From NCBI GenBank assembly GCA_963669155.1, contig OZ022591.1, positions 7,657,661 through 7,721,660 of the forward strand: a DNA stretch of 64,000 nt. Reading direction: 5' to 3'. The notes under the pieces are model-generated. The model ran no database searches. It was given only the letters and a program-made list of their open reading frames with translations, and was not told where the DNA came from. Each line of letters begins with the position of its first letter. Within the stretch, counting starts at the first letter, position 1. Position numbers and translations under genes: made by a program. Shown here in pieces: positions 12,644 to 47,400 of the stretch. The DNA is from Arbacia lixula (lineage: Eukaryota; Echinodermata; Echinoidea; Arbacioida; Arbaciidae).

Positions 12644-15541
12644 ATGCCCAGACGATGGACCAGCAGCAGCGCAGGGAATCTGACGGACCAGGAGGTTTCT
12701 GAGAAGCTGGTGTTACTTGTGCAACAAAATCCAACTCTCTATGATTCCCAGTCACTCTATCATAAAGACCCCAAAGCCGCTGCGAATGGTTGGAAGCATA
12801 TCGCTGAGGAGTTGGATATTCCTTACCTAACAGGTATGTGAAACATTAGACAGGAATAACCGTCTCATTCGGGGCATTCTTTAATCGAAATTACATTTTT
12901 GGACATACCCCCGATGTTCAGAGGAGCCAGATGCAATCTCAGCGGATCCAATGTCCTACTCTCCCTACAGTCCCAGAGACTGATTTTTCCGTCTAGTGAA
13001 ACATGAGCTGTCAAACTAGTAATTAGTATTATGAAATGTTGATTAAATTCCAGTGTTCCACACCAGACAAAATGAAGGGATGTTCTAAAAAAATTTCTGT
13101 TTATTAATTACAAACAGTTCATTTAGGTCTTGGTCGAAGGTTTAACGGCATAGAATTATCAGGAGAGGTTACACTTACAGTACCTTGAGTGCTATACATA
13201 CACCATCAGCCATGTCAGCACTGAACACTGAGCTTGAAAACTTTGATAGCGCGAACATATGTGCACTTGATCGATATGCTAGCTCGTCTCCAGTCAAGAT
13301 TGATTGTATTCTGGCCGGTTTGCAACTTGAAAAAGGCAAATGATGTGTGCTTTTATAAAAAGTTTAATATGACTCTGGTCAACCTTTGACATTCATATTT
13401 CATAGTCAACTACTAAACACAGCCCTAGATCGTAGCGTAGATATAGTGTAAAGAGATTTTGTAATTATGGTTTTTGCCCTATTTCTTTATTTTTTTTAAA
13501 ATTGAGTGTTCGATTAGAGATTAAAAAACAAAGTTTTTGTGAGGAGATACAAGAGGAAATATTTCCTATAAACATAATGAACATGGTCTATTTACTAACT
13601 TTATTCTAGCGGAATGGTCCTTACGTCGGACAACTCATGAACATTAATGAGTCAGATTAAGTGAGGCTCTTCGTTATTTGTTTCCATTTGTTGTGTCTTG
13701 ATCCATGAACTAGAAAGAGCTTGCGTGGTTTAAGTCGCTGCCCGGTAAGCAGTAGATGGCAGGTTAAAATCCTGTCTGGTTCCAAGATTTTTTTTCTGAC
13801 TTGTTTTTCATTCATTTACAGGATAGAGCATGCTACCCCTACTGCCGGGTGTATGCCTAAAATTTCTTTGTAAAATAACTTTATTCTTGTTTTCCATTGG
13901 ACTTCATACAGCAGCGGAGGTGAGAACTCGCTGGCGCACCTTACGTGATACCTACGTCAAAAGGAAGAGAAACGCTGTCAATGGAAGGCCTCAAACCCCC
14001 TGGAGGTACACCAACATCCTCAGCTTCCTGGACCCGTGTATCAATGGACCAGCACGATGGTAGGATTTTTTTTTCTTGATTTCATTCCCTTTTTCAATAC
14101 AAGTTAAACACAAAAGATTAATTCAAACGAATGCATAGCAAATTATTATACTTACAGGGGTAAATATTCTCACACTCTCACGCTGACCTTAGATAATCCA
14201 CATATTCAAACTCCACACCATGATCTCCGAAAACCAGAGAAAGTATAAATAGAAGGTTAGCAAAATTATACAGTATGTGCAGTTATTATCAAGTGAACAC
14301 TTATCATACAAATACTGAAACACATGATTTTTCTTCATTTAAATTTTAATGTACACAAAATATTCTGTGTGCTACATCTAAAATTAAAAAAAAAATAGGA
14401 TGGAAAATTAGATATTTGAACTTTGCAATGTTAAAGAGAAAGACCTTATCACCTTGAAATAGATATGTTCTAATCTTTTTGTGTTTTTGCTTGTTCATCA
14501 TTCTTTCAGCTCTGGTAACATTTTAGAAGATGTCCTGGAGAGATTGTCCGAGGAAGAAGGGTGGACAGATACCAAGGAAAATATCAGGTATGTCCTGTAA
14601 TATTGATGTTCCTCTCCTGAGATTCTATAGAACACTTTGATGATAATATGATATGATAATCATAGCTTCACAAACCTTTTCAGGAAAAGCAAAAAACTAT
14701 CCAAGTTTCTGTTTGAAACACCTCATGTCATATTAATCATATTGTACATTCATATACCATATTACTCCTGTTAGTGATATGCTGTTCACCTCAGTGCTGT
14801 AGGGTGGGGCATGATGTACGTTGTTGCAGTCTGGTATCTCTAGGCTACAAGAATTCGATATCTCACTCTAATTTATACCTTTTTAAGTCAGTTTCCAGTC
14901 CTTATATCGTGGTATTTACAATTTTTGTTTCTTTGTTTGTATGACAATAGGGCTACCCTTCAATAAATAGATAATCTATTAGCTAAGAATCCAAATGATC
15001 ATCTCTATGCAGAATCACTGCAGTGGAGGAGGAGGATGGTACCGAGCAGCCCAGCCCAGCCCCGTCAGACAACTCCTTTGCCAATGCAGGAAATACCAAC
15101 ATGGACACGCCCTCTCCTCCTTCTGCCCCTCCTACCAGGACCTTTCCACTCTACCCTGCACCCCCCGTGGTCAAGAAGAGGAAGGTGGGGGAGGAGGCGC
15201 TATACGAACCCCACCCCTACCCCCAGGACTTACCTCGAGGCGACCATAGCCGGGCAGAGGCCTGCTATAGGGCAGAGGTGCCGACTCGACATGCGATGGA
15301 CGCATTCTTTGAGTCATGTGCGCTGATGTCCAGAGACCTTCCCAGGATCAAGCAAGGCTGGCTACAGATGCAGGTGTCGACGCTGCTGTATATGGTGGAG
15401 AACAGCGATGATCTTCCCCCGCTGTCCCACACGATGAGTTTCCAACCCCCATGCCCGCAGATGCAAGGTCAGGCAACACAATGTAACACAAAGGAGAGTC
15501 AAGACAGCAACGAGGATGATGAGAACCACACAGCAGAGTGA
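12644..15541 (+). CDS. MADF-BESS domain protein (Adf-1-like DNA-binding factor)
   Basis: Probable sequence-specific DNA-binding transcription regulator of the Adf-1 type. Four exons: 12644-12833, 13912-14059, 14510-14587 and 15013-15541, giving 945 nt and 314 aa with consistent phases. The MADF domain (about residues 16-108) carries the expected aromatic/basic pattern: EKLVLLVQQNPTLYD, GWKHIAEEL, then VRTRWRTLRDTYVKRKR and WRYTNILSFLDP. It is followed by an acidic helix (EDVLERLSEEEGW), a Pro/Ser/Thr-rich linker, a monopartite nuclear localisation motif KKRKV (residues 193-197), and a BESS motif at about 234-268 (DAFFESC...LPRIKQGWLQMQVSTLL), the usual C-terminal protein-interaction module. 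The start ATG at 12644 follows an A-rich context and leaves only about 15 residues before the domain. The exon 2 acceptor is a tandem NAGNAG. The exact paralogue cannot be named. Confidence 0.9.
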
Positions 15542-16998
15542 ACACTTGCCAGTTCCAAAGAGGTCCTAAAAGGACAGTCAGGATATTCTTTCTGCAATAG
15601 CTCTGAAAGAGCTGCTTAGAGAACTAGTTTAAAAAGACAAACAGATTGAATGAGTACTGTGAGAGCCAGAGTATTCCAGACGTTAGCTCTAAAAAGAGCC
15701 GTGTGCTCAACATTTTGAATCTGATTGGCAGATCATTGTCGAGAGTGAGGATTAGAAGAAAGAGCAAAGCTGAAGTTGTACTAATGTGGTGTGTGCCACT
15801 GCTAGTCTGCCATCATGTCAGATGAGGTACCAATTGCATTCCTGCAGGTAAATGTAGGATCGTGCCTTTCATACAACACACCTGACCCTATCACTCTTGC
15901 CAGGATAGGTTTTGAACGTAGTAATGACTTATGGGGCATATTTATAAAAGTAACAATTGCATTTGCTATCCTTTGAGCAATTACATACTATTGTTGCCCT
16001 CAGTGTAACTTGCATGTACTAGTGTGTGATGATCGCACACATGTTTTTATTGGCGGACAAGTTTGTGCATGGTGCTATGTGAAACGAGTAAAACCATGTG
16101 AATATCGAGCGCTCTCTTCAAGAGAGTTGGTTGGACATTAATGGAAGTCACCACGAAGAGAAAACAACTTGGCCGAGACCAACTCATAGGTTTTTATGTT
16201 TCGTATAGTTCCGCACATTTTGTGTGCTTCATGGGAATGATTTTCAACCCATGGGTAAAGAAAATATGTTGTTGACATCCCTGATAGAATGGTTGAAGGA
16301 AGTTGATTTGCATTTTTATGTCAAAATAATAAAAATGTGATGTACAACAGTTGACACTTGACTGTGTGGAGTTTGTTTTACAGTGAAAACACTCAAAAGC
16401 ACACAAATAATAGGTTTTTCAAAAAAGATGCCTATAGACCTTGTAATGCTAACAACTAATTTTGAACATCACAGTCACGTCTCAAGTAGATTAATGATGA
16501 TGTTTTCATGAATATTTTTTGTCAGCTCTATGATCAGATGTGAAATGCTCACTGTTAACACGCAACCAAACAGAGCCTGAGACAGAGAAGGGTTTTCATG
16601 TTGCTTTTGATGTTTAAAATATTCATATTCATTAAATATTCACTTGTGGTCCATGCAATTTTTCACATTATTCAAATTGTATGCAAGAGGCTCGACATAC
16701 TTTATGTAATATTCAGGGAGATCCGATATGGGTATGAAGGGAGGGGAAAAATACCAGAATATCCCATTTCAGAAAGTCTTTGAGTGCAGTACCTGGTAGT
16801 TAAATGTTTACTTGTCTTGTATAACAGTTTTACAATAAAGCAATTTCAAAATGACTACTGGTACCTACGTAAATCTCAGATGCTTCATTTGTATCACTTA
16901 GATTCACCTCATTCCTTCCCTGTAAAAACATATCTTAGCCTTCACCATATCAAGTTCATGAAAGTATTGTTTCTGAGTAGTTGATTATACCACATGTA
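15542..16998 (+). other. Probable 3' UTR and downstream region of the MADF-BESS gene
   Basis: Non-coding. A canonical AATAAA lies at 16834-16839, and another at 17612-17617 beyond the palindromic MITE. Either could serve as polyadenylation signal; the first would give a 3' UTR of about 1.3 kb. No further exon is seen. Confidence 0.4.
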
Positions 16999-17220
16999 CA
17001 CTACAGCTCAAAGGAATTGGCATAGGGGAAGGGAAAGGGGAGGAGCCTCAGTTTTAAACCACGGTATATCTTGTCCAGTTCAGCATGAAGCACGATGCTT
17101 TAGCCTAAAAAGCATTGTGTTTCATGCTGAACTGGACAAAATATACCGTGGTTTAAAACTGAGGCTCCTTCCCTTTCTTCCCTTTCCCTTTCCCTATGCT
17201 AATTCCTTTGAGCTGGAGTG
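16999..17220. mobile_element. Palindromic foldback MITE, copy 1
   Basis: A 222-bp nearly perfect palindrome flanked by TA on both sides. The outer arm begins CACTACAGCTCAAAGGAATT and carries GGGAAAGGG blocks, TTTTAAACCACGGTATAT and CAGTTCAGCATGAA. The centre is CTTTAGCCTAAAAAGCA. The second half is the reverse complement with few mismatches. The TA flanks suggest mobilisation by a Tc1/mariner transposase. No coding capacity. Confidence 0.93.
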
Positions 17221-20200
17221 TAGGTCCTATTTTTGTTTGATTTCATGATACCAGGAAAAAATAATCTCAAAATTATAAAATTGTTGAAATGGAACAGAAT
17301 CTGGACCTTGTGGTGATCACAGCATGGTACCATTACTTCACCTTCAGCTACGTTTTTCTAGTCCACATTATCACTTCATAAACATCTATTCTTGCCATGT
17401 ACATATTGCTTGGATAGACATGGATTGAGACGAAAGAGTTCAATTCTTTTGCAATGATAACTTAAATTTCTGTTTTAAAATAATAGAATTATGTTACCGT
17501 CATCAAAATCATTTTGTCCAATATGGTCAGATGATTGATACATTTTATTCAACAGGATTTGTATATACATGTACAGTATAATTATACATTTATATGTGTT
17601 TTTTATTATGAAATAAAACTTATGATTGAAATTAGTCAATCAGCACAGAATTACATATGTTTATATACGACCAGCATACTTTTGTAAATGCTCTGTTTTG
17701 TATTGTTTCTTCAGAGAATGCATTATACCAATGGTGGAGGTTTGCAGTTATTGATTTATTGCAATTTTGTTTTCTGATAGTACCATACATGGCTGGGTTT
17801 GTTTGTATTGAGTCATACATTTTAATTGCTTTTTTTGACCAAGGCCATCTGCTACTACGTGAAGTGCTGCACAGAATACAATCCATAATTGTGATACACA
17901 GTACACACCACACCATACACAAACAATGCTGATATGAACTGTAAAAAAATAGGTAGAAAAAAAGCTCTATCACAGCAGTAATACCTTCTAGTACCTGAAG
18001 AAATGAAGAGGCAAACAAAAGTATTAACACTTTATGGTTCACTCTCACACTTTAGCACAAGTAATATGTGCAAATGTTATCGAGCAGCATTTGATGTACC
18101 ACACTACAGTTTTACCCACACTTTTCTGGTTCAAAACCCAGAATTTTTGCACAAATGATGTATGTTACAGCAGACACGTCAGATTCAACTTAAATCAAAT
18201 ATCTATTTTCATTTCTTGAAAAAGGCAACCCTTTTAAGTATGTGCACATCCTGGCAATCCTGGTTTGAGGGGTGTAAATTAGTTTCGGTAGCTAACTTTA
18301 GCTTGGGCCCTCGTACTCGAGTAATGTCTGACAAGCCAAAAGGGTCAACATTGAATAACATAAGGATTCCCTCGCTGTTGTTTGCAACCTAAAAAATGTA
18401 GATCCCTAAGACCCAGGTTCTACATTCATGATACCCTTCTATCCTAGTTTGCTACTAAAAATCCATGAATGTGATTGCATTTTAGTTACTATCTTGGCTA
18501 AAGTACGGTGTCATGAATGGCTCTAGGGGAGTCTTTCACCGAGCCTTTCGTAAGGTTGTGCTAAATCAAATTCTCAATGATTTTGATTCCCATCAGTTGA
18601 AATCTGATCTTTGTAAATTAACATTTCTGTTAACAATTGTCTGGATGGAAAGTTTATGATTCGTCAAATTTGATTAAGATTGTAGGAGATTAACTCCTAT
18701 GTTAAAACAGGAACACATTGAAGTATCTGATTTATCACAAGAACGGGTCACCAGTCGTGTGTAAAGTCAATTGTAGCTTATGAACAGCTCGGTGAAACAA
18801 CCCCCAGGACTGCCCAAACTCTTTTTACAGACCTCTTTGTGTACTGTTTGTGGAGTGGTAGTGTACGTGTCAGCGTGTGATCAGACTCTTCACAATGGAG
18901 AGTGGTATGTAAGAAGGAAATACTGGTAGTCCTCTGCCATTGTTGAGGTATGTTCAAGCTAGATGAATTGTATGGATGCAAGAGTGTGCAATGAGTATTC
19001 TAGATGTATTCCTGGCCAATATAGGATTTCAGTTCTAATGCTAGGATATGGATGGAAATAAGAAATATAATAAAATACATACTGGTAGATTATTGTTTGA
19101 ATTTAAGTATGTCTAATAGTTATTAAAGATGCATTCATCTAAAACAGGATTGAAATTTTAATGCCCGCGGGTATGAATTATCTACATATAGTTTGAATAC
19201 ATATACATATACATATACATATATTAGAAACATTGATCTTGAATGATAAAGCAGTTTGTTTCCCATGAGGGTTAATTATGCATGCATGCTTGCCTTGAAT
19301 TTGTTTGTTGGTTGTTATTAAAATGTATTTATGGATTTTTCCATGCCAATAATCTGGTTGCTTGCAAGCCTGATGATGTCATTGAATAGGTTCACCTCAT
19401 GAGGAAAATATATTTTTTTTCATATAGGGTCTATTGTTACGAATTGCACGAATGTCCTTGAATTGGTTGTAAGAAAGAAAAGACATTCAGCGTACGTAGA
19501 ATGGGCATTCAAATTTCATCTTTGTGCTCATATAGGCTTGACGAATCAGGGGTATTCTTTCATTGCGATTGGAAGGAACGCACCGTGGCGTGCTCTGTGT
19601 GTGCAAGCATTGGTAATATGAGTTCCGCTATGATGACTCTACCTGAGTGGTAATACTCACATCCTGCCTAACCTGACCCATCTTTGTCTATCCTTTCCCA
19701 GGCGCAGTGCTCTGTTGTCATTGGGTCGACTGACTAGGGCTGTTGGCGGTCGTTCCTGTATACTTGGACTATAGATACGGCCTATGGCTTTGAGGTAACA
19801 TACATTTTTTCCCCCTTTGTCTTTGATATTGTGAATGAGATTAAGTAGTTTTAACCCATTGCTTATGGTTTGGTTAGGATGTCAAAATGCGCCATGGAAC
19901 TGCAATAATTAAAGGAGTGTGGCTTAATTGCCTTTGTAAGGAATTTAAAGTTTATTCATAGCTTGTTGTTTTTTTGTCCGTTCAGCGGATAGGCTGCTTA
20001 CAGTGCTGTGCTGAGTATCTGAGTAGAGATTATAGCCACAGCCAGCAAATTTGCATGCTCAGTAAAGAATGAGTTAATGATATTTTGTGAGAATAATTGT
20101 TCTTGTCTGTTTTGTTTTATTTATGTGAAATGAGTCTTTGTGTGTTAAATTTGATCTATTGTGGTGAAGAAGATCATGATACTTGTTTAGTATGTTAACA

Positions 20201-22434: not shown

Positions 22435-25400
22435 ATGACTTCAAATGTAAAGGTACATCAGCAAATTTATTATGCTTTGTAGCATGTAGTGTTCTCTCTT
22501 TCATATTTTGTATCTGCCTTCCTGTCTATCTATATGTTAATGATTTCATCTGTATATTACTTTTTTCTTACCATATCATTGTCTTTGGCATATTCCTCTC
22601 ACTCTCTCTAATTCATTTTTGTCCCTTTCAATACTGGTACCCTTTTTTTTTTTTTTTTTTTTTATCTCTGGTGTGTTTTCTTCTTGTGCTCATTATTTTT
22701 TATTTATGTTTCTCTTTTTGTATTCTCTTTCTCTCTCTTTCCCTCTCTCTTTCCCTCTCATCTTCTCTCTCTATCTCTGTCTCTCTCTCTCTCTCTCCAT
22801 CGCCTTCTCTCTCTCTCTGTCCCACTTTACTGGTCAATCACAAGTCTGTCTGTCTTCTTCCTTTTCTGTCTTTCTCTCTACAATGTTATACTAACTTGTC
22901 AATGCATTGTAATTTTCACTTTTTCCCTATTCAGGACATTTCTAAATTTCGTCTCAGTGGATGTATAGCAGCGACATTTACTCCGATGCATCCAAATGGG
23001 TAAGGAAAATATTTTGTCTACCGGAAGAGTTAATGTTTATATTTTTATGACTTATAACTATGACTTATAATTATGACCAAACTTTAATGGGTCATTCATC
23101 AGCAATAAAGCCTTTACATGAATGATCATTATTGATTTTGAGAATTTGGGCCTAAATGTGACTTTATATTTCCCGTTTTATCTAACCTGTTCTCTCTTTG
23201 CTTTCTTTCATCAGAGATGTGAACTTTGATATACTGGAGGAGTATATGGACAAACTAGTCTCAAATGATGTTTCCTGTGTTTTTGGTAAGGAGCCAGGAT
23301 TTCTGCTTATTCTTTATATTGTTATTCAACTCTTTAAAGCCTGAATTTTATTAAGGTTGTAAGATATTCAAAGAAAAAACTTTCAGATGTTATTAACTTG
23401 ATGTCACCTAATTGGCAATACAACAGTTTTAACAATATCATTGGTCTAGAGTATGTTTAGTGAAGATTTGTTCATGCAAACCAAATTGTCAGATGAGGGC
23501 ATGAATCCTTATCATTTCTGATCTTTACGATCCATTGTGTTAAAAAGTTGGAATTAGGCCAGCAATGTTTTGACATACTCAGCTTACCTGACAACACAAA
23601 ACCTGGATGAACTCATCAATTTACAAGATAAGGTGATAAGGAGAAGAATTTGTTTATACCTTCCACTCTCTTGAATTCCAAATGGTGTCAGGTTTAAAAT
23701 TCAGTCATGCTTTTAACTTGTATGTGTCATATGACAGCTTATGATTTAGATAATCAGATACAATGTTGTACAAAGTACAAACTATCAATGTTGAGAAACT
23801 TAATCTTAGCTGGTTTGATCATGTGGTCATCAGTGAGTGCATTGTTCAGTTAACTTCATGTGCCTTCCTCACATTTTTTTTTATCTTAATCCTGTGCACA
23901 CCATTCTATTATTGCAGGAGAGTGTCCCTTAATCATTGTGTTATGGACAAGGCATGTGATAATCATATCAAAGCAATGAAGTACATAGTTAGCTTTGAAA
24001 GGAAACATTAGCTATAATCCATCCAAGAATGCCATTGTTCTTGTAAAAGCTCTTACAAAATTCAAGCTGTAACATGTTTCAGTTTGCCTATACACCCCAG
24101 GCTTCTCGATGTGTGTAAGTAGGTAAATATTATTTCTTGCCCTGCACAAACAATACAGCTGACATCCCTGTTTATGGTGCTCAAAGTTTTTTTACCCCAT
24201 TTTTGTAAGCATTATTTATGATATCGTAAACAAGTAATGAAAATGAGTACAATTAGTAATTGCATCCCTGTTTTTGTTTTTCACATTTTTCAACCCTATG
24301 ATTGAATATGTTATTGGTGATTTATTTTTTATTGTGATGATGATAAAAATTTCATCACTGTTTTTATTTTCTAGTTGTATTAACACCACAATCAGAAGCA
24401 TTAATTTTTATATTTGTGATTTTAATGATGATAATCATAATCAAACTAGTTAGGATTTGTAACTGACATCTCGGCTTGTTGTTTTCAAAGTTTTTGTTCC
24501 TCATAATTGGAAGCATTATGATCATAATAATGATTGTATTAATTATCATATTTCAATACTTAATATGTAATTTTCAGTAAATGGGACGACCGGGGAGGGC
24601 TTGTCTATGACGATAGCAGAGAGGAAAGCCCTGGCCGAGAAGTGGATCACTCTGGGAAAGACAAGGTAAAACCGTCCAACCCAATCTTGTAGAATAGTGG
24701 TCACATAATTTGACTTCTCCTTAGAATATGTGAATATGGCCTTAAGATATAAGCTCATTCATTATCAGGGTCTTTTGCATTGTAAAAAACAAGATAATCA
24801 TCTGGCTTTCAAATTGCACGTAACAGCATCAGTATCAGTACAACATTAGTAACATCAGTTTAGAGCAATAATTGTACACATGTGCACAAGTTTGACTTAC
24901 AGTTTTCCAGTATGTTGCCAAGATTTGGTGATAATGTCACCTTTATTTTTGTTGGAAAAATCTGTACAACTGTGATACATATGACAAAGCAAAATCATTT
25001 AATTCACATTGGGCAGGAATTTAAACTGGTACTAGTTCATTTGATGACACTCTTAATATTTGTAATGGGCAACCAATACAGAATTGACAGTTGATTGATT
25101 AGGTATTCTTGTCCATTAAAGTGAAAACAGAGAATTGAGAGATGATAAGTTGGGTACTATTGGTCATAAAAACATGCATTTATAAATTCTTGTCTTTGTG
25201 TGACAGGTTTCAAGCTGTAATAATTCATGTTGGGGCTACCTGCTTAAAAGACATACAAGACCTGGTAAGAACGATCAGATTGCTTTAGTCTTTCCATGAT
25301 TCTGTCTTCACTTGACATATTTCTTTTATCCTTTAAGATTTGAGCTGAGGCCTGAATTTGTTTGTCGCTTTATGACCTTTTATATATTTGTACTTTTTGC

Positions 25401-28400
25401 GGCCATAATTTGTTGTATTCAATCCTGTCTACTTGACAGTATGATTACCTGTTGCAAGTTGGTTCCACTGTCTTTATCATTTTCAATCTTTTATCTATTG
25501 CCCCAAATATTTAATTTCTAGTTTCCATAGTTTCTGGTACTGTTCCTTTTCTCTTTGTACTATCTCTCTTGATTTAATATAATATATTTTCTATGTCATT
25601 TTTGTCTTCCTAGTCATCAAACTTATTTCAACTTGTATCATTTCCTCTTATTCTATTTTGCATTCAAAATGTTTTATATCCTGATCTGTCTTTCTTTTAA
25701 TTGACTCTCCACTTCTTTTCTATTTCTGCCGCGTGTTCATGTTATCATTTCTTCTCTCTCTCTCTCTCTCCATCCCTGCTGCTAGGCCAGGCATGCTGAG
25801 CAGCATGGAGCCGATGCCATCTCCACTCTCCCTCCTCTCTTCTTCAAGCCGTCTTGCATAGGTAAGCAACATTCCACCTTCTAATTCTCCTATTTTGGCA
25901 TGAAATTAATATGTGTGTCTAGGACAGAATTCAGAGAAGTGTTTTTGTTTGGTTTTTGTTTTTGTTTAGTCGAGGTTTGCAATGATGTTAGGTGATTATC
26001 ATAGAAATAAAAGACCACACTAATTTTGAAAATTTTGTTGTTAATGTTGGTGTTTTTACTTTTCATAGATTTAATTCCTTTTGGATACCATACTTTAAGC
26101 TACTAAAAATCAGTACACCTATGTAACAACAGCAAAAACAAAGTTGTGGGTCTGTACGAAGTGTAATCATAAGGTAGACCTGCTTGTGAATTATCTGAAC
26201 CCACGGCCACGGAGTAATTCTGCTAAACTTGAAGTTCAGAAAATGAGTATTCAATCATCCAATAATTTTCAATCTTCTGCAAGTTTCTTGTAAGCTGCCT
26301 TGTTGCTCCGCGACATAAAGTGTAATTGATATCGCTATGGCAATTTCCTGTCGAAATCACATGCGGCAAGTAAAGATTCTTACACAGTAATTGACTGATC
26401 AGATCACAGATATTCTTCTACCTATTGTTTAAAGTTCTTGTATATCATGTGTTTATCTGTGTGTATCATCACAATTTTTGCTCATTTTTCAGACGACATG
26501 ATTGAGTTCTTGAAGCAGGCTGCCTCCGCTGCTCCGAGCACTCCGTTCTTCTACTACCACAACCCTATCATGGTGGGATGTTCATCATGTAAGTCACACT
26601 CTTATCTACCCCTCTTACAGCCCAACTCTTCCCTTCACTAACTGCTGTAGGCCTAACCTATGTGGGACCAAAGACCACAAATATGTGGTGTTGGAGCTGT
26701 AACTTTTCATATCAAGTGTTACAAATCTTAAGATATGTATCACATGAAAGATCATTAATTTCTGCACAAGATGAATATCATTTTGTTGTTTAGTGAAATA
26801 TATTACCTTTGAATGTTGTTTTCTAAAGTGAAATATCGGTCAAATGATCATTAAATCCTCAAATAGGCAATGCACTAGAAAGGTTGAAATCGTGCTTTTG
26901 CTCTTCCAATTGCCAAACGTACAATTTCCATGTACCCCTGTTTGTAGCTTTAAAATCTGATTTAAAAGATAACAGTGCTGCCAATTTGAAAGCCATGCAA
27001 TTAATAATGATCAGCTCTGCCCTGACATGGTCCTTGTCCCAAATTAAATTGACCTGGACTTTGTGTAGTATGTTGATTTATAAGCGTATCACACTCGCCT
27101 CTCTGTTCCTCAACCAACGAAATTAAAAACATGCAATAACAGGAACTTATAGTCATTTATTCACCAGACGGTAAATAATTTTGTTGGCTGTGCATATTAA
27201 CATAAGTTGCCCTGGCAACCACAGTCTGACACGTTCCATGCGTGTGGCCCAGCTCTTCACAAAAACACTTGAACAGAGAGATATTTGTCTTTTTGTGTTT
27301 GACATGAACAATTCATTGAGCAAACAATACTATTCACATGGTAGCCTTTCTTTCAGGCTGCTGGGCATTTTTAATCTAAACTATACATGTTCCAATAACT
27401 GGTAGATGATATGAATCTCAAGCAGGTCTGGATGAACAAGACTACCGTAATTGCTGTTCAGTGATCCCCCAGCTCAGTGGACCAATAGTAGAGCATTTGT
27501 GTTGTTAGCAGTAAACCTTAATGGATAGGTTGGAATAGGAATGTTCAAGAGTGGTGAAACCAGACTATGTTTGTAGTATTATTTGTACAAGCTTCACTCT
27601 TTGTGCTCTTCCAAACGGTTGAAGAAGATGGCAAATTTGTATTTTGCGCCTATGTTGTATTCAATTTTGCCCCAATGGCAGCATGGGTGTCAGGGCTTCC
27701 ACATATGGCACAAATATAACATGATTTATGATTTTTTTTTCGTAGTCCTTTGAGGAATTGTTAATTTCAAGGACATTTTCTTGATATACAATATGATATA
27801 CAAAGAAATGACAATGATGGTGGGCTCATTACGTTACATTACCCGACAATTAAAGAGTGAAATGGTACTGTAACCTTGATAATATTTTAGTTGAGTTGAA
27901 TACAATGTGACTTCAACAAACACAGTGACAAATTGGGTAAAGGATTAAGGAACTCATTTATGTGTGAAAAACGTAATTTCATGTACCAGCATTGCATCCA
28001 TGATCATTAACCTCCCCACGTACAATGTAGCTCCATCAGTTCACATTGGCATTGTACAACGGAGCCTAAGATATATTAACTTCCAACCGGATCGTAATGT
28101 CATGCAGTAACTGTAACCACTGTACAGATGTATGGAGCTGACTGTAATATACCCTTTTGCAAGCCTAACATTTTAAAATATGTTAATACCATGGTACATG
28201 GATTTATAAATGCATTTCTATTGGCTTTGAAAATGAAACGAAAGTGGATGAGTATTGAATTATTGAAAGAAGAACTAGGTCAGGGATTTCAACAATCATA
28301 CAGTTATTTTGGAGGTCAAAGGGATGTTTTTGTGTGGTGGGGTTGTACAGACTGTGGTTTCATGTTGAACAGGATTATTTGAATATGACAATGGCCCTGA

Positions 28401-31400
28401 AATGGCGGAAAATAAACTTTATTTGCATGGGCTTCCTTTCAAAGGTGGTGTCATGAAGCGAATAGATTAAATCATTGGTATGCTCTGCATTATACTCATG
28501 GAGAAAGATGGCCTACTTTGCTCTTTGCAACAGCTATTTCTTGCTTGTTAGGGACTTAAATGCTGTGAATCTAAGTCTTTTTTTTTATTGCCTAGAATAA
28601 GAAATACAAATTGTCACGTCACTTTTGCCCGTTTTCCTCCAACTTATGCAAACAAAAAACTTTGAACTGTGACTGCCCCATGTAGTGAAAGCAGACGTGG
28701 ATGAAATTCTCGTTGCTGCCGATGGGAAAATCCCTAGTCTCATCGGGGCCAAGTTTACCCACGATGATTTGCATGATTATGGTCGCTGCCAAGTTGTCTG
28801 CGATGGACGATACCAAGTTATCAATGCTATTGAGGAGGTACACAATAGTCCTAGTAGACAGTCTGTGGCTTTTGTTCTTGTAAACTAATGATAAGTCATT
28901 CCAATTAGTAGGGGGATAGATTACCAGGATGGCAAGTTGATTTTCCAAATCAGAATAGAGCATTTGGGGGAAAAAAAGTTTTTAGCAAAATGAAGGAAGT
29001 ATAATCAGAAGAAATGGGAGCCAAGAATTGATTATCTTAGCAATCCTACATTATGAGCATCACGGTTGAGATTTTGTCTCTGTGATCTCATTAATATCCA
29101 TATGCCGACACAATTTGCAGCTGACAGTTTGTTTGAGGTTGTCCTTCTGTCTGTTCAGCTGTCTGTCTGGTGTCTGGGGTTACTAAAAGTAACATATTGT
29201 TTGAGAGACGTGCATAAAATTTGCATACATAATGAGAATGGTCTGTTCTTCATAACTTGCATATTGACCTCAAAGTTTGGTCAATTAGTCCCGAAAGCCT
29301 GTCTGAGTTTTCCTTCCTTAATCGAAGGCAATTTTCCATTCTGGTGAACTTTCCTCCTAAAATCATGTGTTGTCAACATACACTGCCTGTAGTGTGCTTA
29401 AACATAACATACCCTGGCTCACCTACATGTATACTGTTTACTGGTAATATTTAAATCCAACCAGGTTCTCATCCCATTTTATTCAATGCACCATCATTTC
29501 TTTTCATTCCTGCCTTCAGTGTAGTATTTATAAAATTAGATTAACCATGTGTTTGCTTTTTAACGGAGGTAATTTTTGTGTTGTTCTGTAAATTTTTGTC
29601 TGGTATTAACTAGTAAAAGAAGTGATGGTAATGCAACATTTATATGATAACTGTACACTACAGCTCAAAGGAATTGGTATAGGGAAAGGGAAAGGGAAGG
29701 AGCCGCAGTTTTAAATCACGGTATATTTTGTCCAGTTCAGCATGAAACACGATGCTTTAGCCTAAAAAGCATCATGTTTCATGCTGAACTAGACAAAATA
29801 TACAGTGGTTTAAAACTGCGGCTCCTTCCCTTTCCCTTTCCCTATGCCAATTCCTTTGAGCTATAGTGTAACTCACAGTCATTATGACATACATAGTTGA
29901 TAATAAGTGGTGTTTTAGTTCCAATGTATTGTGAGATTTTGTGTACTAACCTCAATGTTATAACAATTTCATAACCATTTGTACACTAGATCTAGGTGCT
30001 AGGTAAACCCAGTGTATGTTTTTCATTTAAACGTAAACCTGGTTTTGAGACAATTTATGTTCAAGTATGGTTGCTATCATTTATGATATATTGATTTTGT
30101 GCCAAACATTTGCATTATACCACGTTTCAGTGTGGAAAGTTGATCTGTGATAGCTTCTATTTTATGATAAGTTTGTTTGATATTGATTGAAAATGCAAAT
30201 ATAATCCTTAGAAATAAACACACATGCTACTTTTCCATGGATGGTTACCAAATCACTTATTACAGGGAAGGAGTTCACGGCTCACACACATTTCTCCATC
30301 ACATGAAAATGGATTCATATTTTCAACACATTTCCAATTTTTGTCTTGTAACATCATCTGTGCATGCTGGCAATTCTCGGTGCAGATGTAGTAAACATTG
30401 TCAACCATTAATATGCAATTGCTCAATTTGCTTCATTCAGGCAATTAAGCAGCGGCTATATGCACATATTATTTGATATCTAGATTCTGAGGCCATTTTA
30501 ATACTGGTTTGTTGTGTAAATAGCATTTAGGAGTAACAACATTGCATCATCCCCCTTCCCCCGTGTCCATCCATTCATCAGGTTTTTAACCTAATCTCTT
30601 GAAGTGAAGGGCATGATTCTTCTAAACATGGGACCTCCATTTAGCGTCCTTCGTAAGTGAGGGACAGAGTGTTTCCCAACAAGGGAAGCACCATTATCCA
30701 CAATACAGGCATCTTGTCTGTGTTGGACTCGAACCCTTAACCTTTTGTTTCAGAGTCAGACACTTAAAAAAAACACCATACACCACTTTGCTTGTTTCAT
30801 CCTCATTTCCAAACTCTTTATTGTTCTTCCTCTCGCTGCAGTTACGCTTGAAAGTCTTATACAGAAAATTTTCGCAGAAAAACACATTCCTACACTTTGC
30901 GGGGTGAAATACACATCAACGGATCTTTACGATTACGGCCGATGCCACGCCCATGTAGCTGAACTTTGCCAATTCATGTATGGCTGTGATGAGGTACGTT
31001 TAAAGGCAATCAATGTAATTTTCCACTATTGAAAGCAAGCTTTAGGTTACATGGACATACATGTATCTCTTTGAAATGTGATATGAGTAAATATTTTCAT
31101 CACAATTTTTAGAAAAGAAAACTTTCTTTTTTTTTGTTCTTCTGAATAACCATACTCATATTTAAAGTGTATATAAAAAAAAACATTTGTATTTTTCAAG
31201 ATTTAAATCACAAAATTTGGATTTTAACCCGTCCTAGCCCTCTTACTCCAAGTCTCGTTCCTTAGCACAAAGTCATTTTCAAGTTGATAAATTAAAAACA
31301 GCATGAAAATTGCAGCAAAGCATGCTCTATGTGTTTTTATCTTTAAAGTCATTTTCAAGTTGATAGATTAAAAACAGCATGAAAATTGCAGCAAAGCATG

Positions 31401-34400
31401 CTCTATGTGTTTTCATCTTTCCATCAGCATTTCAAGCAATCATCCACAGTGCATCAAGAAGATTATTTCAATGTTCATTTCATGTCATGATATTAATCAA
31501 ATGTGCCAGATGTATTTTGTGTTAGTGTGATCCCCATATTACCTCACACACGCAACAAATGTCAAGGGAAATCAAACACTCAGCACAACTTGATCAGTAT
31601 GAATGCAGATAAATTAGTGAAGCTGGGATTTTGATTTTCCTTATGTGTTTTTTGTTTGGATGATTCCAATATCCCTCATAACGTTTAATATAATCACATA
31701 TCTTATTCACATTGTTAATTGGTCACTAACTACAACATGACATGTACTTTACTTTTTAACCATTCATAGAATGATTAACAGTTATTTCATAGGGCTTTTT
31801 AGGGGAAGAATTTTATTTTGACATTCATTTACAGACATGGAAAATTCACATGAATTGTGTTTAGTCAACTATTTCATTTGTTATCTTTGGGGACTAATAG
31901 GTGATCTGCAAAATCATATCAAATTGATATATTGATAGCTCATATCTGCATGGTGGTCGCTATGCATGTCGTTGTCTGACTTTAAATCAACTAAGCATTG
32001 TGCATGCAGTGATCAATGTTTTTATAAAAGTTTTTGAGTGTTATGTGGAGAGGAGTGCCTTTATAAACACTTCACATAGCCCTGCAAGCAGATCACAAAT
32101 CACAGGGTCCTGTTGCATAAAGGTTTTCAATTATTGTAACTTACCATCAATGGTAGCTTCCATGGCATTAGGTGCAATACTGAGAGTTCATTGGCTGTTG
32201 CCATGGTAGTTACCATTGATGGAAGGTTACAATAATTGAAAACCTATATGCAACAGGGCACTGATGAGGTTTCAAATTTAACTTGAATTCAAAACAGAAC
32301 ACATAATAAACAACATTTTAGGAGTTGGTTGCCTTAATTGTTCAATCTTACAAGTTGACAATAGAACTGACAATTGAACATGCAGACTTTAAAGCATGAT
32401 GTAAGTTATCTTTGTAAATTTGTTGCTAAAATAGAGAAATGTGCCTTTTTTCTTGGCAGCAAGCCTTGCCAGCGCTGACACTGGGAGGCGAGGCATTCAT
32501 TGGAAGGTGCGTAGTGTGCTGAACCTGTTTATTACCAGACAAACTGACCCTCTTTGTGTACATTATTGGTAATAAAAACATCAATAGAACAAACAGATTT
32601 TATATCTTCAGTAGATTTCACAGATTTTGCCCTCATTAAAAAAAAAAATATGAATACCCTGAAAAGTGGATTTGGGTGAAAGCAGAAAAGACAGGGAGTA
32701 ACAAAATGTTCAAGTTTTCAGAAATTCAAACATGTTAGTAAACATGTTATGAAATGTTATCTAATTTGTGTGATTTTATTCAAATTATCTTATTTTAGAG
32801 TTTCGTGTTCTTCTAATACTTGTTTAAGTTTGGTGTGCATGCTCAATGGATTTACAGATGATATGAACTCATACTTCACCCATTCAGGACCAAGCAAAGC
32901 AAATGTATGATTTTGGGTTATAAATTTTGATATCAAATATAACAAATATTAAGATATATATCCTTGTAGAGTCGGTTAGAGGAAGGTTCTGAAAAATAAC
33001 CGCGATGCTTGCTTCAGTATTACCCCATCATTGCTATCACCTTCTCTCTGATTTTGTTGACAGCACCTACAACTATGCAGGGAAAGTTGCTGCTAGGATG
33101 TTGAAGGCATTCAAGGCGGGTGACGTGGCAACCGCACAAAAGGAACAGGTAAGAATGTACAAACATCATGCTTTAACCCCCATCTCAATCAGACTTCATA
33201 CAACCCCATGGGAATAGTAAGCAAATAATCAGCGTTGGTGAGGGTGATGGGACGAACTATCACTTCCGAGGCGATCTGGATGTAGCTATCTTTCCGAAGC
33301 GCAGCTGAGGAAAGATAGCGTATACATTCAGATCGCCGAGGAAGTGATAGCTCGTCTCATTGCTTGAAACCAAAAGTTGATTATTTGCTTCATATTCCAC
33401 ATCTGAAACCAACTATGACAAAAATACCAAAAATGACAATTTGACGTAAAAAGGTAATGTTTACTTATCTCCATAACCCCGAGCCGCTGCCATGGGGAAC
33501 ACGTGTTAGGACGCGCATTAGGACGCGCGTTAGGACACGTTAGATGTCAAGTGATAGTCCGAGTGTAACACACTTTTATTTCGCGCGTACTCAAAATATT
33601 AATCACGCATTAGGACTGTGAGGAGTGAAGGGATCAGCGAAACCAAAAAGTACTATTACCTAGAGTGTAACAAACTTTTATTCTCAGGTGATCTGATAGG
33701 AAAAACTACGCCTCATCACGTGATCAACTCTTGACCAATCATATAGCAACATTCTTAGTATGTGGAATATAATGTGTATTACCAATGCAATAATGCCTTC
33801 ATGAAGCATAAAGAGTGAACTCCTTCTCTGCCAGACTCCATACTGTACTATAGGAATAGAATAGAAATCTATGATTTCTCGCATAAATTAGCATAAATTA
33901 ATTAGTTAAAAAAAAATAAAAGGACTTTCGTAAATTTAGCTATACAACTTTGTAGATTACATAATTCTTCACCCTTGTGCAAAATTTTGAGGCAATCGGG
34001 CGACCCATGGCTGAGATCTCAGGGAGGGGCCATAATGGCCCCCCCCCCCCCCCGGTAATAACAAGCTTTGAAATACCCCGGGAGTATTAGGGTTAAAAAC
34101 CTCTGTTTACAATGTATCCAGTGACTTGTAGTACATTTTGGTAAAGCTCCTAGAAAATGATGTTTTTTATTATGTATTACATTTATAAGTAATGAGTCGC
34201 TATTGATTGTAACAATTTTCTGCTCTGCTCTGTGCAATTTGTGTCCCAGTTCCACAACCAGGCTGCAGTGTCAGTGCTGAAGAAGCATGGTAAGTGGCCT
34301 TCCCAATGCATTCTTCTTCCCCCTTTCTTATGTCATCATGGCCCTGTCTTATAAAGATATCAATCGTAACTCTGCACATTAGAGATAGAGGATTAGATTT

Positions 34401-36700
34401 GTAATTGATATCAATCGTAACTCTTTACATTAGAGATAGGGCATTGGATTTGCGGTCAATATCAATCGTAACTCTGCACATTAGAGATAGGGGATCGATT
34501 TGCAATTGATATCAATCGTAACTCTGCACATTAGAGATATGAGATTGGATTTGCAATCGATATCAATCGTAACTCGGTACATTACAGATAGGAGATTGGA
34601 TTTGCAATTGATATCAATCGTAATTCTGCGCATTAGAGATAGGGGATGGATTTGCAATCAATATCAAACGTAACTCTGCACATTAGAGATATGAGATTGG
34701 ATTTGCAATCGATATCAATCGTAACTCTGCACATTAGAGATAGGAGATTGGATTTGCAATTGATATCAAGTGTAACTCGGTACATTAGAGATAGGAGATT
34801 GGATTTGCAATCGATATCAATGGTAACTCGGTACATTAGAGATAGGAGATTGGATGTGCAATTGATATCAATCCTAACTCTGCACATTACAGATGGGAGA
34901 TGGATTTGCAATCGATATCAATCGTAACTCTACACATTAGAGATAGGGGATGGATTTGCATTCGATATCAATCGTAACTCTGTACATTAGAGATAGGAGA
35001 TTGGATTTGCAATTGATATCAATGGTAACTCGGTACATTAGAGATGGGAGATGGATTTGCAATCGATATCAATCGTAACTCGGTACATAAGAGTTAGGAG
35101 ATTGGATTTGCATTCGATATCAATCGTAACTCTGTACATTACAGATAGGAGATTGGATTTGCAATCGATATCAATCGTAACTCTGTACATTAGAGATAGG
35201 AGATTGGATTTGCAATCGATATCAATCGTAACTCTACACGTTAGAGAACGGGGATGGTTTTGTAATCGATAGGGCTATAAATCATAACTCGGTACATTAG
35301 AGATAGAACATTGGATTTATAATCGATATCAATCGTAACTCTGCACATTAGAGATAGGGGATTGGATTTGAGATTTAAATCATTCATAATTCCTTCTAAA
35401 ACAGGGCCCTGATGCACAGCTCTTATAGTGAATTAATTAATAGTCCATTTTTAAACCTTTTTTTTATTTGACAATATGCTGTTAGAAGACATTGTGTGAG
35501 GTATCCAAAAAATGTATTCAACTTGTAAAGGCAGGATGACAACCAATATTAAGAAATGTGCATGACATTGTATAGATGGTAACTAATGAATCATAAATGT
35601 TTGGCTTGCATCAAAGATTCTTGATCATAGATGTAAGAACAAATCATATCAAATTTTTAAAAATGTATTTGCTGTGCAGCCTTAGTTAGGAGATCATACC
35701 GGTAATCACACTCGATTTGAAAAGGGCATGCTCAGAGAAATCGATCGCATGTAGGTTTTCAGTTATTGTAACTTGCCATTGATGGTAACTCCTATGGCAA
35801 CAGCTGCAATGAGGAGAGCTCATTGGCTGTTCCATGGTATTAAGGATTGATTGTAAAGACCATGGTAGACAACATGACTTAACCATGATTTTGCAGTCGT
35901 AAGGGCGCAAGGACTGTAAATGTCACGTCACCTTCTTGTTCAAATGCCATGACCAGATCATGTGATTCAGCCTGTCGCAGAGTCATACAATTGATCAAAT
36001 GGTATCATCTGTGGTGGCCTTACAAGCATAATTACAAGCATATGTATTATCTCATTTTACCCTTACTTAGTCATCTGCCTATCGGTTTCTTTGTTTGGGT
36101 TTCAGGTTTTAGGCCATTGTGTGCTGGTAGTAAATGTAGATCAATTGTGTTGTATCTCACTATCTTTTTATTTACTTTCATTTGACCTTGTAATCACAGA
36201 TAAAGCGATTAGGTGCTGATAGACAAATGCAGACCAATTGTATTCGTCTGGGCATTTTTTTTTATCCACTTGTAACCACAGACATGGCCCTTATGAGCTG
36301 GTTTACAAATTTGTATTTCATCTACTTGTTTGGATTTTAAATTTATATCTTTCATTTTGTTTTGATTCCATGTTTGTATATATATATATATTTATCTCTT
36401 TGTTTGGAGTCTAAATTGATGTATCTGTGTACCAGTATCAACTTGTTTGGATTCCGGTGTTCATATAGGCATAATAGGGAATGTGATGATAGACTTTTGA
36501 GTGTGTATATTTTTTTTTTTATTGTTTCGTTATTTGTTTGGATTCCAGGTCCCCATGTAGGCACGAACAAGGCCATCATGTCTCTGGTGGGCCCAGAGAT
36601 GGGGCCAGCCCGCCCCCCTCTCCACAACCCCTCCCCAGCAGTGAGGGAGGAAATAAGGAGAGATCTGGAGGCAGTGGGCTTCTTCGACTGGATCAAATAA
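22435..36700 (+). CDS. NPL: N-acetylneuraminate lyase, with a duplicated active-site exon
   Basis: Cytosolic class I aldolase that cleaves N-acetylneuraminate to N-acetylmannosamine and pyruvate. Exons: 22435-22452, 22935-22999, 23215-23285, 24578-24665, 25207-25264, 25786-25861, 26493-26588, then either 28686-28837 or 30842-30993, then 32460-32506, 33064-33148, 34250-34289 and 36549-36700. Either choice gives 948 nt and 315 aa (human about 320). Visible motifs: [11 protein letters not shown] near the N-terminus; VNGTTGEG (residues 52-59), the carboxylate-binding loop of the DHDPS/NAL family; FFYYHNP with the catalytic Tyr at 147; GAKFT or GVKYT with Schiff-base Lys180; and IGSTYNY with Ser224, matching the conserved Ser208 of E. 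coli NanA. The last exon ends FFDWIK. The 6-codon first exon (MTSNVK) is chosen because it is the nearest phase-0 ATG with a GT donor, and is the least certain part. The last intron contains a 1-kb minisatellite. Confidence 0.94.
22645..22820. repeat. Poly-T and CT-rich tract before NPL exon 2
   Basis: A run of about 19 T near 22645, then degenerate (CT)n to about 22820, about 115 bp before the acceptor of the exon at 22935. Low complexity with no coding signal. Confidence 0.8.
28686..28837 (+). other. NPL: NPL alternative active-site exon A (A-I-E-E type)
   Basis: A 152-bp exon with acceptor CATGTAG and donor GAG/GTACAC, entering in phase 1 and leaving in phase 0. It encodes 50 full codons, including [20 protein letters not shown] with the Schiff-base Lys180 and adjacent Thr182. 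It ends INAIEE where lyases normally have G-x-D-E. It aligns without gaps to exon B with about 16 of 50 identical residues. No stop codon or frame lesion is present, so it looks under coding constraint. Confidence 0.85.
29656..29868. mobile_element. Palindromic foldback MITE, copy 2
   Basis: A 213-bp palindrome flanked by TA (29654-29655 and 29869-29870), with the same family arms as at 16999 (CACTACAGCTCAAAGGAATT ... CCTTTGAGCTATAGTG). It sits in the NPL intron between alternative exons A and B. In the pre-mRNA it would fold into a long hairpin between the two competing exons. Confidence 0.93.
30842..30993 (+). other. NPL: NPL alternative active-site exon B (G-C-D-E type)
   Basis: A 152-bp exon with acceptor CGCTGCAG and donor GAG/GTACGT, with the same entry and exit phases as exon A. 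It encodes [20 protein letters not shown] with Lys180 and Thr182, and ends MYGCDE, matching the canonical G-x-D-E sugar-binding block (GVDE in the human enzyme, GYDE in E. coli NanA). Including both exons would shift the frame, because 152 is not a multiple of three. The two therefore behave as mutually exclusive. Confidence 0.88.
31269..31421. repeat. 76-bp tandem duplication in NPL intron
   Basis: Sequence starting AAAGTCATTTTCAAGTTGAT at 31269 recurs at 31345 with only a couple of mismatches, so this is a recent duplication. Non-coding. Confidence 0.9.
32104..32261. mobile_element. 'GGGCCCTG' inverted-repeat MITE, copy b
   Basis: About 158 bp. The left end AGGGTCCTGTTGCATAAAGG and the right end CCTATATGCAACAGGGCACT are reverse complements, and the internal GTTTTCAATTATTGTAAC block is inverted at the right. 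It lies in the NPL intron between exon B and the exon at 32460. Confidence 0.82.
33211..33398. mobile_element. Inverted-repeat element (MITE-like) in NPL intron
   Basis: The outer arms GGAATAGTAAGCAAATAATC (33211) and GATTATTTGCTTCATATTCC (33379-33398) are reverse complements. The inner arms ATCACTTCCGAGGCGATCTG and its near reverse complement, plus GCTATCTTTCC / GGAAAGATAGC, make a strong hairpin with a 12-15 nt loop. No coding capacity. Confidence 0.75.
34340..35409. repeat. 51-bp minisatellite inside a 'GGGCCCTG' MITE
   Basis: About 20 units of 51 bp with consensus features ATATCAATCGTAACTC, ACATTAGAGATAGG and GATTTGCAATCG (unit starts at 34356, 34407, 34458, 34508, 34559 and so on). The array is bounded by GGCCCTGTCTTATAAAG on the left and CTTCTAAAACAGGGCCC on the right, an inverted pair resembling the ends of the MITE family at 21787. 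Because 51 is a multiple of three, long fake frames run through both strands. It lies in the last NPL intron. Confidence 0.9.
35752..35845. mobile_element. 'GGGCCCTG' family MITE, truncated copy c
   Basis: It shares GTTTTCAGTTATTGTAACTT, CCATTGATGGTAACT and CATTGGCTGTTCCATGGTA with copy b, but both terminal GGGCCCTG ends are missing. In the last NPL intron. Confidence 0.65.
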
Positions 36701-44409: not shown

Positions 44410-47400
44410 TCAAAGTTCCTGCTTCTTGTGTTTCTTGCCCTTGCCGTTCAGATCAGCAGGATTTGGTCGAATAACTTTGGCGCCCTCTGGTAGTACCGAT
44501 TGGATAGCTTCCTCTATCGTCTCCTGCGATGCGTCCTTCTTCTTGCCCTTGGGTCGTTTCTCGCTGGGCTTGGCTGGGAGAGAGACGGCGCAGCGGAAAC
44601 TCAGGTTGTCAGAGCCAGCGTCTGCTTCGTTACCCATTCTGCTAGCAGAAATAAGCAATGTTAAACCCTCTCCACAATGGTATTGCGTACTTAACGTAGA
44701 CTAACTTTATGGGACACAAAATAAATCATCTGATGACGTCAAAAAATCATTACTTTTTGTCATAGAATCACAACAATTTGTGATTTCACTTATTTGCTGC
44801 AATCATCCAAGGACAAAAGCAATTACATTGACTCAACAATAATCTTTCATGTTGTTTTACTTGCCGTTAGTACAGGTTTAGTACACTGCTTGCGTTAAGC
44901 TTCTGTTCTGAATATGTCGGTTATGCGCCATTGATGCATTGTGGGTTAGGTAATGGTGATGGTGATTGCCCCATGTATCTTTCCAGTCTTGTAAAATCCA
45001 AACCCCCCTCCTCCAGGTTGAGAGCTTCAACTTCCTCTCACTTTCAGTTAATGCCTGGTCCCCGTGTGAAAACAAGATACGGCGATAGAGCTCTTTCTGT
45101 CGCTGCTCCCCAATTGTGGAATAGCCTTCCTGCCTTCATTCAAAACGCCGCATCGCTACATACTTTCAAAACAGTGTTAAAGTCCCACTTATTTAAATCT
45201 GTATAGGTCGAATTGATTTGCCTCTCATAATTTAAATTTAATCGTGGTGCTGCTGTCCCAGCTTTCCATTTGGTATAAGGATAGAACTTCACTTAATGAC
45301 TGCGGGGACAGCAGCAACACAGCACCTAGAAACATAGTATTAGGCGCATTATAAATGTGCTCTATTATTATTACTATTATTATAGGTAATACACACAAAA
45401 CAAACGGAGGAGCGTTCTGTCTGGCACAAAAATGGCTTTAGAAACAGCGGTTTTCATACAACTAGTGCTGCTTCTATCACAATCATGGCCAGTTAGTTAA
45501 GTTGACCTTTGTGTAACCAAGTTCAATCTTAACACTTGACCTTCAATAGTACCCCACTGGAACAAACTTACAAGAGAAATTGTCACCTCCCACACCACTG
45601 ATACTTTCAAAACCAAATTGCAAAAGGCCCTCAAAACCTTCCAAAATTGAAAGCGCATTACCATTTGCGTCAGCCCTGAGTTACCCTTCCTGGTGGAGGA
45701 CTTCAGGGAAAACGACTACAAGGAACATCACTTACATCAAGATTCCCTAAATGCTTGAGACACAAATGTCCGATTGCGATTTGATTTGAACTATTCTAGA
45801 ACCAAAATGTCTATCAATGACTTTAACCTAATAGGCTTTAAACAGTAACAAAACAAAATAACTTGCAGGGACTGACGCATAAATGCAGTCACCATTTGGA
45901 CACAAACATCATCACTTCATGCCACCAAAATGGCTCGATCTAACAAGTTGACTTTGAGTTGACTACATTGACATCTCTTTAATGATGATTTAGAGTTTTT
46001 GTAGACACTCTACGAACCTTGTTGTAACCCTAGTAGCGTGGTTGAACTTCCCATCCTTTGAGTCGATGTAGGAACCTCCCCTGAGGACATAGCGTGTCTG
46101 GGACGGGTCTTCACTAGCTGGGGACGGGGCGTCATCCTTAGCGCTGGGATTGGCACTGAATTTGGTGGAGGTCCACTCCCACACATTGCCTATCATGTCA
46201 AACAGACCTAGAGATGCACACAAGGTTAGAAATCAAAGAAATGTAAAGAAAGTGTACAGTGAATGGCAAATTATGACTACTGGAACTAGCAAGAGAATTA
46301 ATACTATCCTTGGGATTGGCACTGAATTCGGTGGAGGTCCACTCCCACACATTGCCTATCATGTAAAGCAGACCTAGAGATGCAGAGAATATTACAAATC
46401 AAAGTGTGGTGTGGATGGCAAATTATCCATATTGCAAGTATATCAAGACTCTCTTTGGTACTGGGATTGGCACTGCATTTGGTGGAGATCCACTATACAC
46501 ATTGACTATAACATCAAACAGACCAAGAGATGCACACAAAAATAGACACTTTAAATGTGTTTGGAAAGTGGTGCATTGATGGCAAATTATGACTACTGGA
46601 AATAGCAAGAGAATTAAAATTATCCTTGGGATTGGCACTGAATCTTGTGGGGATCCACTCCACACATTGCATATAATTTCAAACATACCTAGAGATGCAA
46701 ACAAGGCTAGAAAACAAAAAAGATGTCCATGTAAAGAAAGTGTGGTGTGGATGACAAACTATGGGTACTTGAAATAGCAAGAGAATTAACCTATCTTTGG
46801 TACTGGGATTGCAACTTATGTGGAATAAACCTAGAGGTCCACACAAGGTTATTAATCAAAGAGATGTGTCTGAAAGCAACATGTTGATGGCAAATTATGG
46901 ATGTTTGAAAAAGCAAGATAAATATGTTCATCATTGGTACTGAGTTTCGTACTTAATTTGGTGGAAGTCCTCTTCAATATCATGTAATCAATAACATATA
47001 AGTTCAAGAAATTACATTTAACACATTCAATGTAATTTCATATTAATAGGCTAGCTTTGTAGGAGGACAGCAACAGCAACAACAGTGCACAGTGCACAGT
47101 AGATATATGTTTTCTTACCATACTCATTCTGAGCCGGGAATGCATCTACAGGGCCAACACCATGGTGACCATCAGCCTTGGTATTATCGGAGGGAAATTT
47201 GCCCTGAAAATATGGAAAACATACATTTAATCTCATGAATACGATCATGGTGGCATGAAATAAACCTCAATTATTAGATGTTTAAGTAGTATTACCAAAT
47301 ATTCAGCTTAGTTTACAAGTAAGGTGATTTCATGTGATAACATAAAGTGTGATCTTGTAAGATCTCTCCTAAAAATAACTGATATTCACAACTATTATTG

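Follow-up and report, generated by a model that had tools for sequence, protein, structure and literature searches.

The NPL Gene and Its Surroundings

The window, i.e., the whole 64-kb stretch of DNA analysed here, carries on its forward strand a gene for N-acetylneuraminate lyase (NPL), the coding exons of which lie within 22935..36700. This assignment, proposed in an earlier note made from the sequence, is borne out by a comparison of the B-form protein with solved structures, which found human NPL (6arh, E-value 4.8e-76). The Pfam DHDPS family PF00701 matches both isoforms that the gene might encode (147.1 bits for the A form, 149.3 bits for the B form); a PF00701 match combined with an NAL as the closest solved relative (6arh for the B form) places the gene in the NAL/DHDPS superfamily. 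With the alternative exons A and B taken as one, 11 coding exon positions could be located, and AG and GT stand at all internal boundaries; the exon with the start codon is not among them and must lie upstream of 22935. The catalytic tyrosine was assigned to the FYYHNP block of the exon 26493..26588 by resemblance to the block described in PMC4016182, and the GTTGEG motif was named after GXXGE in PMC5380162. The features of the gene are as follows.

22935..22999, plus strand: first coding exon located
23215..23285, plus strand: coding exon
24578..24665, plus strand: coding exon carrying the GTTGEG motif
25207..25264, plus strand: coding exon
25786..25861, plus strand: coding exon
26493..26588, plus strand: coding exon with the FYYHNP block, ending in phase 1, shared upstream partner of A and B
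28602..28685, plus strand: acceptor region of exon A, an 82-nt AG-free stretch plus AG
28686..28837, plus strand: exon A, alternative copy, Schiff-base lysine retained, sugar-binding motif A-I-E-E
30842..30993, plus strand: exon B, standard echinoid form, Schiff-base lysine, canonical G-C-D-E motif
32460..32506, plus strand: coding exon, phase 0, shared downstream partner of A and B
33064..33148, plus strand: coding exon (STYNYAGK...)
34250..34289, plus strand: coding exon
36549..36700, plus strand: final coding exon, including the stop codon

A 51-bp tandem repeat of about 20 copies occupies 34356-35370 in an NPL intron. Elsewhere in the window, exons of a neighbouring sulfatase-modifying-factor gene were found on the strand opposite to NPL (45990-46232 and 48471-48686, minus strand; FGE-sulfatase domain, E-values 1e-13 and 5.7e-18), along with an open stretch (46423-46758, minus strand) that has no Pfam match and contains, by eye, two degraded look-alikes of the FGE exon segment; these are perhaps dead exon duplicates, contrasting with the intact NPL pair. 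A MADF/Myb-SANT-like DNA-binding gene is represented by two fragments within 12623-14063 on the plus strand. The region 9473-10480 on the minus strand contains what we take to be transposase-like remnants; 10196-10480 gave weak helix-turn-helix matches below the cut-off, and 9911-10150 gave none.

Two Homologous Exons at One Position

Exons A and B are each 152 nt long, preceded by AG and followed by GT; both are entered after one codon base (phase 1) and left at a codon boundary (phase 0), and both encode the segment with the Schiff-base lysine, GAKFT in A and GVKYT in B. Position, length, phases, open frames and these motifs agree with the earlier description of the pair, as does the protein identity, which had been put at about 16 of 50 residues and amounts to 16 of 51 (31%) in a gapless alignment, with 73 of 152 nucleotides identical. 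The local alignment score of A and B is 81, compared with a maximum of 42 in 500 shuffles. An HMM profile of the exon segment, built from 32 relatives with both A and B left out, was searched against 2140 six-frame open stretches of the window (20 residues or more) and placed B and A in the first two ranks (76.1 and 53.6 bits), the third match scoring 5.8 bits.

A transcript containing only A or only B would keep an open frame of 309 residues followed by a stop, as read from the 11 located exon positions; the claim that either exon restores the lyase frame therefore stands, but the length of 315 residues given with it was not reproduced, the 309 residues being counted without the start exon. 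Joint inclusion of A and B would introduce a stop at codon 224 of 360, which lies 86 nt short of the following exon junction and 258 nt short of the final one; with both exons skipped, the frame would close at codon 178 of 259, the corresponding distances being 52 and 92 nt (codons counted from the first located exon). Premature stops located upstream of exon junctions trigger nonsense-mediated decay as a general rule, and this fate is expected for transcripts with both exons or with neither. The predicted frame break on double inclusion was thus recovered as a premature stop, and the phases and stops together uphold the idea of homologous alternative exons at one position, the exclusivity of which is enforced by the frame. 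The pair has the properties by which mutually exclusive tandem exons are recognised in PMC3228551, namely homology, approximately equal length and preservation of splice sites and frame, and neither double inclusion nor double skipping would give an intact product. Judged from the sequence, A and B are real duplicated exons with frame-enforced exclusivity.

It might be supposed that the pair is a misassembly or a gene model artefact, with exon A derived from another NPL gene or allele, as the data come from a single window of one assembly. Searches with the other NPL exons (all but 23215-23285) revealed no second copies in the window, the best other match having an E-value of 0.5 or worse; exon A suits an intron with matching phases, and an identity of only 73 of 152 nucleotides means that A and B are not alleles. 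We consider an artefact very improbable.

The Encoded Segment and Its Active-Site Residues

Sequence comparison indicates that the exon corresponds to residues 156-206 of the relative P0001. In the AlphaFold2 model of P0001 (pLDDT 94.9), this region comprises a helix (158-168), a strand (174-179) bearing lysine 178, a second helix (184-194) and a second strand (199-202), followed by the G-V-D-E turn (203-206); a Foldseek search with this model ranked human NAL first (42% identity). A swap of the exons would thus replace one continuous block of the barrel in which both catalytic and sugar-contacting residues lie.

Conservation of these residues was counted in the best 120 of 568 relatives, and the numbering of G-x-D-E (G189, D191 and E192 of E. 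coli) follows the cited papers. The Schiff-base lysine of the G-x-K block is present in all 120 relatives and in both A and B; two residues further on, A and B have threonine, and the relatives have serine (97) or threonine (21). The glycine of G-x-D-E is found in B and in 119 of the 120, and A has alanine, as does the sole exception, the brittle-star protein P0006 (A-V-D-E). The aspartate likewise is found in B and in 119 of the 120, and A has glutamate, as does the sole exception, the tardigrade protein P0083. The glutamate (118 of 120) is retained in A and B. Exon B thus encodes the sugar-binding motif G-x-D-E (GCDE) and exon A does not (AIEE). The putative equivalent of Tyr172, assigned by counting residues from the lysine, is tyrosine in B and histidine in A. 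The earlier view of two interchangeable catalytic exons needs to be qualified accordingly: both keep the lysine segment, but they are not equivalent, A having an altered G-x-D-E motif.

Asp191, Glu192 and Ser208 are the residues of E. coli NAL that recognise the hydroxyls of the Neu5Ac sugar (PMC5380162, PMC3014015), and in the structure of the E192N variant the ligand analogue is bonded by the backbone carbonyl of Gly189 (PMC3014015); as this contact is made by the backbone, a change of glycine to alanine alone may alter little. CgNal, a characterised lyase reported to be functional and to favour synthesis, has glutamate in place of Asp191, but the Glu192 and Ser208 positions are occupied in it by threonine and valine, and there it is described as nearer to dihydrodipicolinate synthases (PMC5380162), so the precedent for the glutamate of A is only partial. 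Taken one by one, the motif changes in A have precedents: the alanine in P0006, and the glutamate in one of the best 120 relatives and in CgNal. Given the altered G-x-D-E, the A isoform is classed here as a lyase-like member of the superfamily and not as a proven sialic acid lyase.

Both exons might be used, with the A isoform acting as a catalytically weak, non-lyase subunit that modulates B subunits in tetramers. NALs are indeed tetrameric, Tyr172 of a neighbouring subunit packing on Glu192 (PMC3014015, PMC5380162), and A carries both the histidine at the counted Tyr172 position and the changes at 189-191; yet A retains the Schiff-base lysine, the threonine two residues on and the Glu192 equivalent, which would not be expected of a dead subunit. 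For this reason such a role is ranked low and appears improbable.

Coding Constraint and Splice Sites of Exon A

The 16 columns in which A and B agree have a mean family conservation of 0.85, compared with 0.61 for the other 35, a difference matched by 2 of 10,000 permutations. Neutral decay was simulated with B as the ancestor and with substitutions up to the observed divergence, indels being ignored, which favours survival. When all the divergence was placed on A, an open frame with AG and GT persisted in 55 of 3000 runs, and the G, K and T residues also persisted in 5 of 3000; with half of the divergence on A, the corresponding numbers were 321 and 64 of 3000. Among 152-mers drawn from eight intron stretches of the NPL gene (the introns 23000-23214, 24666-25206 and 34290-36548 being left out), 419 of 8453 were open in the phase of the exon. 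The bias towards conserved columns and the rare survival in the decay runs make it probable that A served as a coding exon during the greater part of its existence, and the earlier suggestion that both copies had long been kept open finds in the permutations and the simulation signs of lasting coding constraint on A.

Scored with a consensus matrix taken from general knowledge, the acceptor and donor of A reach -1.4 and -0.8, those of B 4.2 and 4.2, and the other NPL exons 0.5 to 7.6 (acceptors) and 3.0 to 7.0 (donors), so that by this matrix both sites of A are the weakest in the gene. The sites of both exons had been called good; AG and GT are in place at each, but by this matrix the description is too favourable for those of A. 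The best pyrimidine stretch of the A acceptor ends 43 nt upstream of the AG, and the AG-free zone of 82 nt is ordinary for the gene (80 nt for B, 88 nt for exon 1 and 170 nt for exon 5). Weak sites fit a regulated weak exon and decay alike; in U2AF1, the exon with the less favourable splice sites is the more used one (PMC5224494), a precedent by which weak sites alone do not settle the use of A.

The main rival explanation follows from these features: A may be a relic exon, left over from an old tandem duplication, long in use but no longer spliced in, the gene making only the B lyase. Besides the splice sites, it would account for the lack in A of a glycine and an aspartate whose motif is among the best conserved in the segment. 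It agrees less well with an exon that, at 31% identity to its partner, has kept an open frame, AG and GT, its exact length and the most conserved residues, and with the scarcity of such outcomes under neutral decay. A recent loss after long use is compatible with the signs of constraint, and we regard this explanation as unlikely overall, albeit the strongest of the alternatives.

Introns Flanking the Two Exons

Seven inverted-repeat pairs were found in 26400-32600. Apart from two short palindromes and one long-range match of poly-T with poly-A, they belong to two hairpins:

29654..29870, no strand assigned: hairpin in the A-B intron with 105-nt arms of 94% complementarity, also holding two shorter pairs
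32103..32263: hairpin with 65-nt arms, in the intron after B

Both are presumably MITE-like insertions. By eye, translated pieces resembling the first hairpin recur in 16985-17248 and 59927-60508. A comparison of the 500-nt flanks of A and B gave no alignment better than an E-value of 0.21; neither a tRNA nor an Rfam match reaching the gathering score was detected in the window. Control of the choice between A and B by RNA docking sites was considered and is unsupported by the inverted repeats found in 26400-32600.

Relatives and Age of the Duplication

The nearest relatives of the NPL protein are P0001 (74% identity) and proteins of Lytechinus pictus (68%), Diadema setosum (67%) and Diadema antillarum (63%); a relative from the brittle star Amphiura filiformis is 51% identical. 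These identities make an echinoid origin of the window probable, and as no protein among the relatives found exceeds 74%, the species itself seems not to be among them. All five echinoid or echinoid-like proteins (P0001-P0005) are of the B type, as would be expected if A were no longer spliced. A search with the exon-A segment yielded four candidates, none of which scored, and a wider region search yielded eight proteins among 101 candidates, none of the A type (seven with G-x-D-E, and P0006 with A-V-D-E). The latter search missed the known Diadema relatives P0004 and P0005, so the absence of A-type proteins is not proven by it. The protein database was clustered at 90% identity, and the A and B isoforms of one gene would be about 89% identical (35 differences in 309 residues), close enough to this limit that the clustering could hide A isoforms.

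In the first helix, A, B and four other echinoid or echinoid-like rows have two or three extra residues relative to all 27 non-echinoderm rows. In a tree of the segment (34 rows, 54 columns), A groups with the brittle-star P0006 (86/91); in the same alignment, a group uniting A with every echinoid B segment was not rejected, nor was a pairing of A and B (p-AU 0.457 and 0.451, respectively). The extra residues in common would speak for a duplication inside the echinoderm lineage, and the alanine common to A and P0006 would fit an older split.

A Putative Splicing Switch in the Lyase Barrel

We favour, with a probability of roughly 60%, the interpretation that A and B are a functional mutually exclusive pair in an echinoid NPL, B being the default and A an alternative with altered sugar recognition. 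A tandem duplication would have affected the exon that encodes a quarter of the (beta/alpha)8 barrel, and the copies would be spliced as exclusive alternatives. Exon B, with its ordinary splice sites and canonical motif, would be the default, yielding a sialic acid lyase of the usual kind; exon A, whose sites are weak, would be an alternative under regulation. The A isoform would keep the pyruvate-binding lysine chemistry and remodel the turn gripping the substrate at its sugar end, with A-I-E-E where E. coli has G189-x-D191-E192 and histidine at the counted Tyr172. Its substrate would be another or a modified sialic acid, or the same one cleaved at a different rate.

The sialic acids of sea urchins include 8-O-sulfated and O-acetylated Neu5Gc and Neu5Ac, and among those of echinoderms there are 8-O-methylated forms besides 8-O-sulfated and O-acetylated ones (PMC6994554, PMC9630641); several sialic acids serve as substrates for cleavage by human NPL, at differing efficiencies (PMC13220900). 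Taken together, this diversity and this variability make a specificity-tuning role of exon A plausible but unproven. A more specific version, in which the choice of exon switches sugar specificity, the turn being remodelled at the glycerol end so that A handles echinoderm sialic acids substituted at O-8 or O-9 (8-O-sulfated or acetylated Neu5Gc and Neu5Ac) and B handles them poorly, is speculative and rather doubtful.

If the favoured interpretation is true, one gene could yield two lyases that grip the sugar differently, and a swap of active-site parts by splicing would fall on a sialic-acid-degrading enzyme in a phylum with diverse sialic acids. This would connect the diversity of sialic acids with their breakdown in a testable way and would supply a natural pair with a swapped module for the study of specificity in a well-studied barrel enzyme.

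Comparison with Known Exon Swaps

Mutually exclusive tandem exons are a known kind, with 214 human and 154 fly genes reported (PMC9741552), and they have been described in enzymes. No NPL with alternative active-site exons was found among the open-licence papers listed by the searches, in agreement with the earlier note, which knew of none; in that literature, neuraminate lyase and mutual exclusivity were mentioned together in a single paper, apparently a review of bacterial endotoxin, and NPL is not mentioned in the main text of the human tandem-exon survey PMC9741552.

The canonical NPL/NanA enzymes (human 6arh and E. coli NAL) share family and fold with the product of the gene; B has the canonical motif residues, and A departs from them at G189, D191 and the counted Tyr172. 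A close parallel in form is the pair of exons 6a/6e of COQ-2 in helminths, annelids and molluscs (PMC7434440), likewise two exclusive exons, one standard and one distinct, in the core of an enzyme; there, the swap changes the substrate used, and splicing, conservation and function (in C. elegans) were demonstrated, whereas for NPL they are deduced from sequence. Swaps of active-site residues by splicing are uncommon in metabolic enzymes, and according to the authors of that study it is rare for one splice event to change enzyme specificity this clearly. The exon switch of CYP4F3, cited in the same paper, is also a splicing choice that alters the substrate specificity of a metabolic enzyme, but it differs from NPL in its unrelated fold and substrates and in that tissue-specific use was reported.

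Homologous tandem exons are likewise swapped in the metabolic enzymes ACOX1, KHK and PKM, and in KHK the catalytic arginine is retained in both forms (PMC9741552). According to the same survey, human pairs in regions overlapping ligand-binding residues retain 80.6% of these residues and are 53.1% conserved overall. The NPL pair, with 31% identity and a differing sugar-binding motif, is more diverged than this human average; in three human genes, one copy has lost most or all of the predicted binding residues (PMC9741552), so the pattern seen in NPL is not without precedent.
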